From an uncultured Pelagibacteraceae bacterium (GTDB lineage: Bacteria > Pseudomonadota > Alphaproteobacteria > Pelagibacterales > Pelagibacteraceae), in assembly GCA_902587295.1 (NCBI GenBank), contig CACIKS010000007.1:1-44637 (forward strand): a DNA stretch of 44,637 nt, written 5' to 3'. The notes under the pieces are model-generated. The model was not told the origin of the DNA. It worked only from the letters and a program-made list of their open reading frames with translations, and searched no databases. The position numbers were made by a program, and so were the translations under genes. Positions 20,389 through 26,116 of this stretch are shown piece after piece; position 1 is the stretch's first letter; each line of letters opens with the position of its first letter.

Positions 20389-20410
20389 ATAGATGTACAG
20401 GATTTGTTCT

Positions 20411-21085
20411 ATGCTTACAAAAAAACAAAAAAACTTATTAATTTTTATTAATAAAAAAATTAGGTCAACTGGTGTTTCTCCTTCATATGAGGAAATGAAA
20501 AATTCGCTCAACCTTAAGTCGAAATCTGGTATTCATCGCTTAATATCAGCGTTAGAAGAAAGAGGTTTTATTAAAAGATTAGCACATAAAGCTAGAGCTC
20601 TCGAGGTCATCAAGCTTCCAGAAACAGCAAGTGCACATGATTTATTCAACAGTTTTACTCCAAGTGTGATAAAAGGTGGTCTCGACCAGAGTTCAAATAA
20701 ATCTACTAAAGTTTCAATTCTTGGCTCTATAGCGGCTGGTACTCCTATCGAGGCAATACAACATGAAGTTGATAAAATTAATTTGCCCTCTGATTTTAAC
20801 AAAAATGATGATCACTTTGGACTAAGAGTAAAAGGTGATTCAATGATTGAAGCAGGAATTAATGATGGTGATACAGTTATCATCAAAAAAAGCTCTAATG
20901 CAGAAAACGGGCAAATAGCCGTGGTATTGATAGATAATGAGGAAGCAACTTTAAAAAGAATAATTAAAAAAGGAAATACTGTAGCTTTAGAGAGTGCAAA
21001 TAAAAAATACGGCACAAAAATATACGCAGCAAAAAGAATTAAGATTCAAGGAAAATTAGTTTCTTTATATAGAAACTTCAATTAA
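20411..21085 (+). CDS. lexA: LexA repressor
   Basis: 224 residues from the ATG at 20411. MLTKKQKNLL matches the family start, and an AGGA lies 8 bases upstream. An ATG at 20393 is in frame but would add six residues foreign to LexA. An N-terminal winged helix-turn-helix (about 1-65) precedes a peptidase S24 domain. The autocleavage site is Ala109-Gly110 in GSIAAGTPIE, with the nucleophile Ser144 in GDSM and Lys182 in ATLKRI. Ala109-to-Ser144 spacing (35) equals that in E. coli. RecA-triggered self-cleavage would derepress SOS genes. It carries its own SOS box upstream. The usual moaC-moeA pair between trpC and lexA is not here, and no comEC separates lexA from gltX. Confidence 0.97.
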   Translation: MLTKKQKNLLIFINKKIRSTGVSPSYEEMKNSLNLKSKSGIHRLISALEERGFIKRLAHKARALEVIKLPETASAHDLFNSFTPSVIKGGLDQSSNKSTKVSILGSIAAGTPIEAIQHEVDKINLPSDFNKNDDHFGLRVKGDSMIEAGINDGDTVIIKKSSNAENGQIAVVLIDNEEATLKRIIKKGNTVALESANKKYGTKIYAAKRIKIQGKLVSLYRNFN

Positions 21086-22496: not shown

Positions 22497-22515
22497 TTTC
22501 TTTTGCTAATTAAAC

Positions 22516-22544
22516 TTGACGATTTTGTATCATACCTTTATAAA
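22516..22544 (+). promoter_or_regulatory. Sigma-70 promoter of umuDC
   Basis: TTGACG at 22516-22521 and TATAAA at 22539-22544 are separated by exactly 17 bases, a near-consensus housekeeping promoter. Transcription would begin near 22551, inside the SOS box and about 15 bases before the umuD ATG. This gives umuDC its own LexA-controlled start downstream of gltX. Confidence 0.75.
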
Positions 22545-22546
22545 AA

Positions 22547-22561
22547 GAACAAATCAAGAAC
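22547..22561 (+). promoter_or_regulatory. LexA-binding SOS box before umuDC
   Basis: GAACaaatcaaGAAC, the same GAAC-N7-GAAC arrangement as at lexA. It lies 2 bases past the -10 element and ends 4 bases before the umuD ATG, covering the predicted transcription start. The position explains damage-inducible control and rules against a TTG start further upstream. Confidence 0.88.
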
Positions 22562-22565
22562 ACTT

Positions 22566-22946
22566 ATGAAGCTTAAATTACCTTTTTATATTCACAAAGT
22601 TGGCGCCGGTTTTCCTTCGCCTGCCACTGATTACATTGAGGATGATGTAGATTTAAATACACATCTAATAAAAAATCCACCAGCAACCTTTATAATAAGA
22701 GTGCAAGGTAAATCTATGAGTGGTGTTGGTATCTGTGACGGAGATTTATTAGTCGTTGATAGAAGTATTAATCCAAAGAATTCATCAACAGTAATAGCAA
22801 ACGTTAACGAAGAATTGGTAGTAAAAACCTTTATGAAAGGAAAAAATAATAATTACCTGGCTTCTGGTCCAAACAAAATTGAATTAAGTGAAAATCCTAA
22901 TGTAATAATTTGGGGAACAGTTACTTATGTCATTCATAAATTATAA
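22566..22946 (+). CDS. umuD: UmuD-like SOS mutagenesis peptidase (Pol V accessory subunit)
   Basis: 126 residues from the ATG at 22566. A longer frame with a TTG start at 22503 is possible but would begin upstream of the promoter and SOS box. It is a peptidase S24 domain. The cleavage site is Ala14-Gly15 in HKVGAGFPSPATDY, the nucleophile is Ser50 in GKSM, and the general base is Lys87 in LVVKTF. The spacing cut site to Ser (36) and Ser to Lys (37) equals that of E. coli UmuD, which has Cys24-Gly25. RecA-stimulated cleavage would activate it as a partner of UmuC. Ala at the cut site, as in LexA, replaces the Cys of the enteric protein. It overlaps umuC by 20 bases. Confidence 0.93.
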   Translation: MKLKLPFYIHKVGAGFPSPATDYIEDDVDLNTHLIKNPPATFIIRVQGKSMSGVGICDGDLLVVDRSINPKNSSTVIANVNEELVVKTFMKGKNNNYLASGPNKIELSENPNVIIWGTVTYVIHKL

Positions 22947-24207
22947 TAAAAATAAAATTGCTCTAGTAGACTGTAATTCTTTCTATGTTTCTTGTGAGAG
23001 GTTATTTAATCCAAAAATACAATATAAACCGGTTGTGGTTTTATCAAACAATGATGGTTGTGTAATTTCAAGATCTAACGAAGCAAAATCTTTAGGAATT
23101 AAAATGGGCGAACCCTATTTTAAAGTAAAAGAATTAATCAAAAAAAACAAAGTATATATTTTTTCATCAAACTATGCTTTGTACGGAGATTTATCTCGTA
23201 GAGTTATGAGGGTATTGAAAAGTTTTGCAACTAACGTAGAAATTTATTCTATTGACGAGGCATTTATTGATTTGTCTTTTTTAGATGAAAAAAGCATAGA
23301 AAATTATGGAAAAGAAATAAGAAAAAAAATTTTGAAATGGACGGGTATTCCAACAAGTGTTGGTATATCATCAACAAAAACTCTTAGTAAAGTTGCAAAT
23401 AATATTGCTAAAAAAGAAAAAACAGGAGTTATGTATTTAAATGAAAATATAGACGAAAAACTTAAAAAATTTCCCATAGGAGATGTTTGGGGTGTTGGAA
23501 GAAAATTATCAAAATTATATATAAAAAACGGTATTGATAATGCATACAAATTAAAATCAACCTCAAATACCTGGATCAAAAAAAGCACAAACGTTCTAGG
23601 ATCAAGAACAGCTATGGAACTTCGTGGTATAAATTGCATTGGTTTACAAACATACGAAGAGAAAAGAAAAAATTGTTGTGTATCTAGATCGTTTGGTAAA
23701 AAAGTGACAGACCTACAAAAACTAGAGGAAGCTGTCACTACTTATTGCTTAAACGCAGCCGAAAAAATAAGAGGAGACAATCAGATATGTAAAACATTAA
23801 CAGTTTTTATTAGAACAAGTCCTTTTAACAAAAAAAGAAAATATTATTCAAATGGACTAACCATTGATCTTCCGATAGCAACAAGTAATAGTATTGAGTT
23901 AGTGAAAAATGCCAGAAAGGCATTAAAGAGTATATATAAACCTGGTTACTATTATCAAAAAGCTGGAATAATTTTATCTAAATTAAAAGACTCGGACGGT
24001 AAAGACATTAATCTATTAAGTCCTATACTAGAAAATAAATCAAAAGAGTTAATGAAAGCTATTGACTATACAAATATGAAATACGGAAGGCATGCAATTA
24101 GTATTGCAAACGCAGGAATAAGTAAAGGTTGGAAAATGAGAAGAAAACATTCTTCCAGAATAGATACGGCTTCATTTGATTATCTTCCAAAAGTAAGTGC
24201 GTCATAA
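22927..24207 (+). CDS. umuC: UmuC, Y-family DNA polymerase V catalytic subunit
   Basis: 426 residues of a Y-family polymerase. Metal-binding carboxylates are in ALVDCNSFYVSCERLF (Asp near residue 14) and YSIDEAFIDLSF (DE pair near residue 110). Other motifs are KPVVVLSNNDGCVISRSNEAK, IPTSVGISSTKTLSKVANN and GDVWGVGRK (helix-hairpin-helix). A little-finger domain is followed by a C-terminal UmuC-specific tail, MKYGRHAISIA through MRRKHSSRIDTASFDYLP. It carries out error-prone bypass of lesions with UmuD'2. The start codon lies within the end of umuD, so the two are translated together. The full Pol V pair is a substantial load for a streamlined genome. Confidence 0.96.
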   Translation: MSFINYNKNKIALVDCNSFYVSCERLFNPKIQYKPVVVLSNNDGCVISRSNEAKSLGIKMGEPYFKVKELIKKNKVYIFSSNYALYGDLSRRVMRVLKSFATNVEIYSIDEAFIDLSFLDEKSIENYGKEIRKKILKWTGIPTSVGISSTKTLSKVANNIAKKEKTGVMYLNENIDEKLKKFPIGDVWGVGRKLSKLYIKNGIDNAYKLKSTSNTWIKKSTNVLGSRTAMELRGINCIGLQTYEEKRKNCCVSRSFGKKVTDLQKLEEAVTTYCLNAAEKIRGDNQICKTLTVFIRTSPFNKKRKYYSNGLTIDLPIATSNSIELVKNARKALKSIYKPGYYYQKAGIILSKLKDSDGKDINLLSPILENKSKELMKAIDYTNMKYGRHAISIANAGISKGWKMRRKHSSRIDTASFDYLPKVSAS

Positions 24208-24258: not shown

Positions 24259-25179
24259 GTGGAAAAAAATATATATATAATTCACGAAAATGATGAATGG
24301 CTAGTTCCATTAAGAGAGAGTTTTAAAAAAATAAACGCTCCATATAAAGAATGGCATATGGACAAAGAAGTTTTTGATTTTAAAAAAACTCCACCTGATG
24401 GAGTATTTTATAATAGAATGAGTGCAAGTTCACATTCTAGGGGGCATCGATACGCACCAGAAAATACAAAAGATGTGCTTGGATGGTTAGAAAAAGAAAA
24501 AAGAAGAATTATAAATAATTCAAGAGCGTTAGAATTAGAAATTAGTAAACAAAAACAATACAATGAGCTCAAAAAATTTAATATAAAGTTTCCAAAAACT
24601 TTTTATGCAAAAGATAAAAATGAAATAATAAAAAATTCAAAAAAATTTGATAAATCATTTATTACAAAACACAATAGGGGTGGAAGAGGTTTAGGAGTAA
24701 AATTTTTTAAAAATTCTTTTGAACTTGAAAAGTATGTAAACGAAAATTTTGAAAATTCAGTAGATGGGATAATGTTATTACAAGAATATATCGAGTCTGA
24801 TCCTAGAGTAATTACTCGCGTCGAATTTGTAAAAGGAAAATTTTTATATGCAGTTCAAGTTGATGCATCTGATGGTTTTGAATTATGTCCAGCAGACGAA
24901 TGTAATATTGAAGAAAAGTTTTGTCCCACAAATCCTGATGGTAATAAATTTATGATATTAAAAAATTATAAAAACTCAGAAATTCAAAAATATGAAGATT
25001 TATTAAAATCAAACGATATTGAAATTGCAGGTATAGAATATATTAAAGGTAAAGATGGAATACATTATACTTACGATATAAATACAAATACGAATTATAA
25101 TTCAATCGCTGAGAGAAAGAGTGATTTAAAAGGAATGGATTCGATAGCATCATTCCTTTACAATGAGTTAAGAAAATAA
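24259..25179 (+). CDS. RimK-like ATP-grasp ligase, substrate unknown
   Basis: 306 residues with a GTG start. The N-terminal ~100 residues are a pre-ATP-grasp region (IIHENDEWLVPLRESF, DGVFYNRMS). The ATP-grasp core has a glycine-rich loop KHNRGGRGLGV (about 137-147), LLQEYI (about 173-178) and a metal-binding DINTNTN (273-279). RimK-type enzymes join a carboxylate to an amine through an acyl phosphate. An unusual cysteine trio lies at 210, 215 and 222 (ELCPADEC, then FCP). No signal peptide or membrane segment is visible. It sits 51 bases after umuC and just before the TPP riboswitch, so a tie to pyrimidine or thiamin metabolism is plausible but only inferred. Confidence 0.72.
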   Translation: MEKNIYIIHENDEWLVPLRESFKKINAPYKEWHMDKEVFDFKKTPPDGVFYNRMSASSHSRGHRYAPENTKDVLGWLEKEKRRIINNSRALELEISKQKQYNELKKFNIKFPKTFYAKDKNEIIKNSKKFDKSFITKHNRGGRGLGVKFFKNSFELEKYVNENFENSVDGIMLLQEYIESDPRVITRVEFVKGKFLYAVQVDASDGFELCPADECNIEEKFCPTNPDGNKFMILKNYKNSEIQKYEDLLKSNDIEIAGIEYIKGKDGIHYTYDINTNTNYNSIAERKSDLKGMDSIASFLYNELRK

Positions 25180-25246
25180 ATTTTAGGGGTGTCTAATATG
25201 ACTGAGATTATACCCTTGAACCTGACCGGTAATTCAGTGAGGAAAT
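25180..25246 (+). ncRNA. TPP riboswitch (THI element), compact form
   Basis: The conserved THI core can be read in order: GGGGT at 25186, CTGAGA at 25202, ACCC followed by TTGAACCTGACC from about 25212, GGTAAT and then GTGAGGAAAT. GGGGT pairs with ACCC (P2). The variable P3 arm has shrunk to GTC/GAC around a six-base loop (25191-25202). P1 can form between ATTT at 25180 and AAAT at 25243-25246, next to the ribosome-binding site GAGG (25239-25242). Binding thiamin pyrophosphate should therefore close the start of the next gene, a translational off-switch. No terminator hairpin with a U run follows. Confidence 0.9.
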
Positions 25247-26116
25247 ATGAAAATAAAATTAGCACTTGAGTGGTTTATAAATCCTGATCACCTACCCTTC
25301 ATTGTAGGTTTGGATAAAGGTTTATACAAAAAAAATAATATTGAGTTAGAAATTATTGAGCCTGAAGGTCATTATGATGGATTTAAAGAACTTGCCCAAA
25401 ATAATATTCAATTAGCAACCAATGAACCTTTGCACTTAATTGAAAAATATCAAAAAAATATTTGTTCAATTGGAAACTTTTTTGAAACAAACGGAGGTAT
25501 TATATTTACAACCAAAGGCTACGAAAATTTAATTAATGAAAAAGAAGTTAAAATTACCTCACCAGTTAGTAATCCTGTTACAGACAAAATAGCTAATGAT
25601 ATTATTCAAAGACATTTGAAAAAAATTAATAAAACAAATAACAATATAAAAATTGTAGCTAATGATTTTTATCATATTAAACATCTAAAAGCTGGATTTG
25701 ATGCGGCTTGGCTATGTTTTGAGAACTTTGAGGGTGTTGAGTCTAAATTGGAAGGTTTAGAAGTAAAAAAAATATATTTGGAGGATGTTGAAATACCTAA
25801 TTTTTGTGCACTAGATGTGTTTGCCTCTAAAACTTTTGCAAGTAAAAACATGAATTTAATTAATGACTTTAAATCTATGGCCCAGGAAAGTATCAAGATT
25901 TTAAGTTCAGATTTCGATTATTCTAAATCTTCTTATTATGCTTATACAAAAACAAAATCTAGTACTTTGATGGACAATATTATTAAAGATACGATACACA
26001 GATTTAAGAATCCTTTTCAAAATTCAAAAAGTAAATGGATAAACTTACATCAATACGTGGTAAAAGAAAAAATTTCCGATATATCTGACTCACAATATAG
26101 CGATATGTTTGTTTAA
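25247..26116 (+). CDS. THI5/NMT1-like thiamin-pyrimidine protein, no signal peptide
   Basis: 289 residues of the SsuA/THI5 fold. It opens LALEWFINPDHLPFIVGLDKG, which matches the family pattern W-x-P-N-x-x-H followed by K-G, then IIEPEGHYDGF and TNEPLH (about 58-63). His63 lines up with the histidine of yeast Thi5 that supplies pyrimidine atoms, but its PLP lysine position reads Asn and the CCCFC cluster is reduced to one Cys (Cys187). Neither an N-terminal signal peptide nor a lipobox is visible, so the protein looks cytosolic, unlike ThiY-type binding proteins. No ABC permease or ATPase gene is adjacent. The TPP riboswitch directly before the ATG ties it to thiamin supply. Reaction and ligand are unknown. 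Confidence 0.78.
   Translation: MKIKLALEWFINPDHLPFIVGLDKGLYKKNNIELEIIEPEGHYDGFKELAQNNIQLATNEPLHLIEKYQKNICSIGNFFETNGGIIFTTKGYENLINEKEVKITSPVSNPVTDKIANDIIQRHLKKINKTNNNIKIVANDFYHIKHLKAGFDAAWLCFENFEGVESKLEGLEVKKIYLEDVEIPNFCALDVFASKTFASKNMNLINDFKSMAQESIKILSSDFDYSKSSYYAYTKTKSSTLMDNIIKDTIHRFKNPFQNSKSKWINLHQYVVKEKISDISDSQYSDMFV

Follow-up and report, generated by a model that had tools for sequence, protein, structure and literature searches.

A leaderless ThiY-like protein stands in place of ThiV behind a TPP riboswitch in a SAR11 genus

The locus

The window analysed here, i.e. the whole stretch of 44,637 nucleotides of contig CACIKS010000007.1, belongs to a Pelagibacteraceae (SAR11) genome of 852 kb (76% complete). 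Within it, a riboswitch and a single gene occupy a slot beside lpxB. The features of this slot and its borders are as follows:

24259-25179, + strand: RimK-like ATP-grasp protein of 306 aa, the upstream neighbour and left border of the slot
25175-25261, + strand: TPP riboswitch aptamer (THI element, RF00059), compact and lacking P3a, its 3' end overlapping the start of the coding sequence
25239-25242, + strand: GAGG, which resembles a Shine-Dalgarno sequence and forms part of the 3' strand of P4, a helix of the aptamer, as read from the sequence
25247-26116, + strand: leaderless ThiY-like protein (NMT1/THI5 fold) of 289 aa, assigned by PF09084, fold search and invariant residues
26119-27255, - strand: lpxB, the downstream neighbour and right border of the slot

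The RimK-like ATP-grasp gene is not thought to be part of the thiamin function. It lies to the left of the switch in most loci with the NMT1-like gene and in six loci with thiV, and is absent in genomes G049, G077 and G118. Further to the left, the window encodes a LexA-like protein (20393-21085), a short S24-type protein (22503-22946) and a UmuC/DinB-type polymerase (22927-24207), so that two S24-type genes are present within 2.6 kb.

A compact TPP riboswitch overlapping the start codon

A covariance-model search matched the window aptamer to the full RF00059 model (positions 1-105) at 38.3 bits (E = 2e-6), and the conserved CUGAGA, ACCUGA and GGUAAU core is present in this match. The first-pass annotation, made from the sequence alone, had spoken of an almost textbook THI element; the aptamer is indeed real, but it represents a minimal variant and this wording was a little strong. 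Its score, like those of all 24 copies in the genus, falls under the Rfam curated cut-off of 54.3; the shortfall stems from a short P3 and a missing P3a, which every one of them shows. The window aptamer is considered genuine since it is the sole credible RF00059 match in the host genome, since aptamers of 36-49 bits occur in 24 of the 31 genus genomes with a near-invariant core, and since all 24 stand 5' of a thiamin-pyrimidine gene. Further RF00059 matches to this genome score 12 bits and are attributed to chance. The pairs of P2, P3 and P4 are almost invariant, with three pairs changing on both sides, and the genus offers too little variation for covariation alone to establish the aptamer.

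The switch runs to the very start of the protein, with the ATG at 25247 lying within the Rfam span of the aptamer. In helix P4, CCT (25221-25223) pairs with AGG (25240-25242), and these pairs are found in all 20 distinct aligned sequences. Since the putative ribosome site GAGG is part of the 3' strand of P4, TPP binding should block initiation; it would bury the site directly, without a separate expression platform.

A ThiY-like protein without an export signal

The 289-residue product matches the Pfam NMT1 family (PF09084) at 88.3 bits (E = 9e-25, curated cut-off 20.5), and the top matches of a fold search are 4nmy, 3ix1 and Thi5, in agreement with the THI5 fold initially assigned to it. Indeed, each of the 22 highest-ranking PDB fold matches is a thiamin-bound substrate-binding protein, FAMP-binding ThiY or Thi5. 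The best of these in both sequence (E = 2.6e-6) and fold (E = 7e-16) is 4nmy, a thiamin-bound substrate-binding protein of C. difficile, which differs in being annotated as an extracellular ABC component and is only 18% identical to the window protein. Matches to OXA beta-lactamases in NCBIfam and the PDB were dismissed as chance.

No export signal or lipobox was found in the window protein, which begins MKIKLALEWF at the point where mature ThiY starts. There is no room for a signal peptide, because an in-frame TGA lies three codons 5' of the ATG, inside the aptamer; all genus members that were checked likewise have an in-frame stop, 3 to 6 codons before the start. A missed start with a cleavable signal was accordingly dropped, and the earlier claim of a protein without a signal peptide is upheld. 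The absence of thiX/thiZ neighbours was also borne out: the adjoining genes are the ATP-grasp gene upstream and lpxB downstream. When the rest of the incomplete host genome was checked for NMT1-family proteins, a single other match emerged, a TRAP-TAXI binding protein located beside its own permease. The gene is not a pseudogene, with a dN/dS of 0.05-0.10 that indicates purifying selection, and misassembly or contamination is ruled out by its occurrence in the same place in 15 other genomes.

Three mutually exclusive cargoes in one slot

The slot was compared across 31 genomes of the genus, in 25 of which lpxB is present and the slot resolved. In all 25 the cargo is located 3' of lpxB (with one extra gene between them in G049); it consists of the NMT1-like gene in 16, thiV in seven and tenA in two; no genome among the 31 holds two of the three. 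Where lpxB is missing, in the remaining six genomes, none of the three cargoes is present either, apparently owing to a gap in the assembly. The window protein is represented, at 86-92% identity, in 16 of the 31 genomes, and the TPP switch is found at 24 of the 25 resolved slots, the exception being a tenA locus (G001). A weak family match in G028 (L019) lies in an apparent KDO-transferase-like protein and is ascribed to chance.

A thiV gene behind a TPP riboswitch is known in SAR11 (SAR11_0811; PMC11452348, PMC2704228). It shares with the window gene the same switch and the same slot beside lpxB, and in some genomes the aptamers are letter-identical; in contrast, thiV encodes a membrane sodium symporter whereas the window protein is soluble, and the two are mutually exclusive. 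No thiV was found anywhere in the 16 NMT1-like carriers, and the chance that genome incompleteness explains its absence from all of them is, by a crude estimate, 2e-11. The NMT1-like gene takes the thiV slot and excludes thiV from the genome.

The third cargo, tenA, is known in some SAR11 (IMCC9063, subclade IIIa; PMC10030771, PMC10470507). It resembles the window gene in offering an alternative route to HMP from the same slot, and differs in its unrelated fold and known reaction. The slot TenA of the two genomes is of the catalytic type, with LSPCVIGYGEIG. These copies were seen at L041 and L050 (G077 and G001, respectively), the G001 copy lacking a TPP switch and standing behind a hemB-like gene. 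A TenA-family gene present in most of the genus (L058 type) appears CADD/PqqC-like by eye and is distinct from the slot TenA.

SAR11 bacteria have been described as almost universally ThiC-less and in need of dissolved HMP, taken up via a ThiV 'conserved across SAR11 genomes' (PMC11452348). The lack of ThiC noted in the first-pass annotation holds for this genus: ThiC was found in none of the 31 genomes, the host included, in a search whose controls were positive in 13 of 14 cases. Full-strength ThiE (123-165 bits) is present in 12 of the 16 carriers, again including the host, so the pyrimidine half of thiamin is still needed. In G049 (C1:53390-53933) and G136 (C6), ThiE is apparently in pieces.

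Exchange of the cargo behind the switch

Two genomes, G121 and G091, hold the NMT1-like cargo, but over the 740 bases upstream they share 93-97% identity with thiV genomes and only ~83% with the window. The upstream gene and aptamer match thiV strains at 93-100%, and the G121 aptamer equals that of the thiV genome G072 through GTGAGGGA. Beyond the aptamer, cargo and lpxB are of the non-thiV type, lpxB being 97% identical to that of the carrier G024 and 79% to that of the thiV genome G081. The junction is located at the 3' end of the aptamer. Because both genomes pair a thiV-type aptamer and upstream gene with the other type of cargo and lpxB, the cargo has been exchanged behind the switch, for which homologous recombination in the shared switch would be the simplest explanation. 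This represents a clear case of cargo swap, in which the regulatory RNA is kept and the regulated gene replaced.

A leaderless family spanning three phyla

Outside the genus, relatives of the window protein are few: a Campylobacteraceae MAG (L076, 43% identity), a complete alphaproteobacterium (L107, 31%) and Staphylococcus plasmids (33% over 65% of the length). All are leaderless (L107 assuming an ATG start), and no relative was found in viral contigs. In profile comparison, the leaderless family matches ThiY at E = 1.9e-25 and Thi5 at E = 5e-10, and so stands closer to the former. In the tree, the leaderless proteins part from both ThiY and Thi5 with support of 100/98 to 100/100, a result to be read with the caveat of long branches, and the leaderless state spans three phyla. 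The distant relatives at 31% and 43% identity reside in genomes with ThiC and without a TPP switch. A contig filed under Candidatus Neomarinimicrobiota MED589 (L060, NZIV01000029.1) carries the window protein at 99% identity; in all likelihood it derives from SAR11 and was misassigned during binning.

The pairing of switch and protein recurs independently in Staphylococcus. In S. epidermidis and S. saprophyticus, a leaderless homologue is encoded on plasmids immediately 3' of a TPP switch, which scores 64-65 bits and exceeds the cut-off, while on an S. capitis plasmid the copy of the switch is cut by the record edge. The staphylococcal homologue joins the clade of the window protein at 100/98. 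Taken together, the SAR11 and Staphylococcus loci indicate that two bacterial phyla pair the leaderless protein with TPP control. No clear partner gene adjoins the homologue at the S. epidermidis, S. saprophyticus or S. capitis loci; in S. capitis, an ABC ATPase fragment and a permease lie nearby, parted from it by IS257, and in S. saprophyticus IS257 copies flank it. Matches to the staphylococcal protein from Pantoea, Rhodobacterales and faecal 'phage' records were set aside, those opened being ordinary ThiY with ABC partners and, in some cases, TenA.

Residues that set the family apart

ThiY (PDB 3ix1) shares with the window protein its fold, the [DE]WFxNPDH motif, N160 and E162 and, in some loci, a TPP switch. 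However, ThiY has a signal peptide and adjoining ThiX/ThiZ, neither of which the window protein possesses; in the true ThiY loci examined, ThiX/ThiZ were present and TenA was found sometimes. Furthermore, H42, E60, P61 and H143 are invariant in the leaderless family and different in both ThiY and Thi5, ThiY having P/Y/Q/L at these positions.

Thi5/THI13 (PDB 4h65, 4h67 and 4esx), including a bacterial representative (L112), is leaderless and cytosolic, has the same fold and a His equivalent to His63 (His66 in Thi5), and would share a role in the TPP pathway. The window protein differs in lacking the PLP lysine, the GEFGK loop and CCCFC, and in belonging to a separate clade (100/98-100). The residue alignment given in the first-pass annotation proved correct: His63 aligns with Thi5 His66, Asn59 occupies the PLP-lysine position, and one Cys (C187) is left of CCCFC. 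The latter position reads PNFCAL, and its Cys is a Ser in L076 and L107. Lys62, which bears the PLP imine in Thi5 (PMC10848271), corresponds to N59 in the window protein and to N or T in all relatives; the family has no invariant lysine, and the GEFGK loop is missing.

H63 is invariant in the leaderless family, and some ThiY also have a His there or at an adjacent position. The His63/His66 match speaks less strongly for Thi5 chemistry than it might seem to: the family is nearer ThiY, has no invariant lysine and includes two distant relatives with ThiC. The conserved D44 is common to nearly all compared proteins. Together with D44, the set H42, E60, H63 and H143 appears to resemble a catalytic or metal site more closely than a pocket that simply binds a ligand. 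The predicted model (pLDDT 77, pTM 0.75) has poor confidence at the pocket loops (residues 11-20, 41-50 and 61-70), on which any closeness of the conserved histidines would depend. The initial proposal is supported in part: the support extends to a cytosolic, TPP-regulated protein that departs from the standard Thi5 synthase and to the lack of ThiC in its SAR11 genome. It gains strength from the replacement of thiV in the slot and from the leaderless homologue found behind a TPP switch in Staphylococcus.

The bacterial Thi5 itself, encoded in a 1.3 Mb alphaproteobacterial genome without ThiC (L112, G359), seems complete, retains both LKAMIH and CCCFC and is a candidate bacterial HMP-P synthase. 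As contrast cases, this locus and the true ThiY loci conform to expectation.

Possible function

In cells that lack ThiC, a gene for a soluble protein, standing alone, replaces the one HMP importer known, and its product should therefore itself yield pyrimidine. We propose that, when TPP is scarce, the aptamer would open and free the GAGG ribosome site in P4, whereupon the cytosolic protein of ThiY/Thi5 fold would be made. This protein would supply HMP or HMP-P inside the cell, replacing the HMP symporter ThiV of related strains. It would have descended from ThiY-like pyrimidine-binding proteins, losing the export signal and gaining the polar set H42, E60, H63 and H143, and would most likely be an enzyme, either synthesizing the pyrimidine or releasing it from a precursor. 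We put the probability of this reading, a TPP-repressed cytosolic cargo that supplies pyrimidine instead of ThiV and is probably an enzyme, at roughly 0.55. Against it, a precursor importer, for instance a transporter of the CytX/PucI type, may exist elsewhere in these incomplete genomes, and the relatives L076 and L107 live with ThiC and without a TPP switch.

As to the activity, it is a real possibility that the protein is a salvage enzyme or its partner, acting on imported FAMP, AmMP or thiamin and releasing HMP as TenA does. TenA, itself a salvage enzyme, is one of the three slot cargoes, and canonical ThiY operons elsewhere hold TenA and a FAMP deformylase; the closest kin of the family is ThiY, a solved relative of which binds FAMP, and the top fold match is thiamin-bound. 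Relatives with ThiC also fit salvage better than synthesis. However, salvage requires an importer, and none was found, thiV being absent from all carriers, although a CytX/PucI-type transporter may be present; moreover, the gene stands alone on the staphylococcal plasmids.

More tentatively, the protein might be a de novo HMP-P synthase of the Thi5 kind, consuming PLP and a protein His with Fe(II) and oxygen at a different active site. A self-sufficient source would explain both the loss of the only transporter and the stand-alone mobile gene; the fold, the leaderless and cytosolic state and the position of H63 are those of Thi5, and a genuine bacterial Thi5 exists in a ThiC-less alphaproteobacterium (L112). 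The replacement of Lys62 by Asn or Thr without any invariant lysine, the missing GEFGK loop and CCCFC, and the closer kinship to ThiY argue against this, as do, for synthesis in general, the two distant relatives that live with ThiC. One may also speculate, with slightly less confidence, that nature has a third route to the pyrimidine besides ThiC and Thi5, namely an enzyme that descends from ThiY, has no leader and uses a His/Glu active site of its own.

It seems unlikely that the protein only binds pyrimidine or thiamin and passes the ligand on, as a cytosolic carrier or buffer: the solved bacterial relatives listed are indeed binding proteins, but a binder alone does not replace a high-affinity importer, and the new invariant His and Glu residues suggest chemistry. 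Finally, an ordinary ABC binding protein with a missed start or another export route and a permease elsewhere, as implied by the public annotation of the staphylococcal homologue ('ABC transporter substrate-binding protein'), is highly improbable given that all genus members checked have an in-frame stop shortly before the start codon, that the leaderless state is common to three phyla, and that the only other NMT1-family match in the genome is a TRAP-TAXI protein with its own permease.

Consequences for SAR11 and Staphylococcus

In the open literature on NMT1 or THI5 in SAR11 with a TPP switch, we found no description of such a gene. In 16 of 31 genomes of one Pelagibacteraceae genus, no ThiV was found and a different cytosolic cargo is carried on the same switch. 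Should pyrimidine indeed come from this protein, as in the reading preferred here, part of the most abundant bacterial group of the sea would have another vitamin-B1 economy, and models that score such cells as HMP consumers would be wrong for them. If the more speculative third route were true, about half of this SAR11 genus would be independent of dissolved HMP, and the route would travel as a single TPP-controlled gene, on staphylococcal plasmids included.

The pairing of switch and protein on plasmids points to an undescribed way of supplying the thiamin pyrimidine, and because it recurs in Staphylococcus, the function can be tested in laboratory strains. One staphylococcal homologue (L181, 8995-9906) has an IS257 copy on either side, and the mobilizable plasmid on which it resides also bears genes for arsenic resistance.
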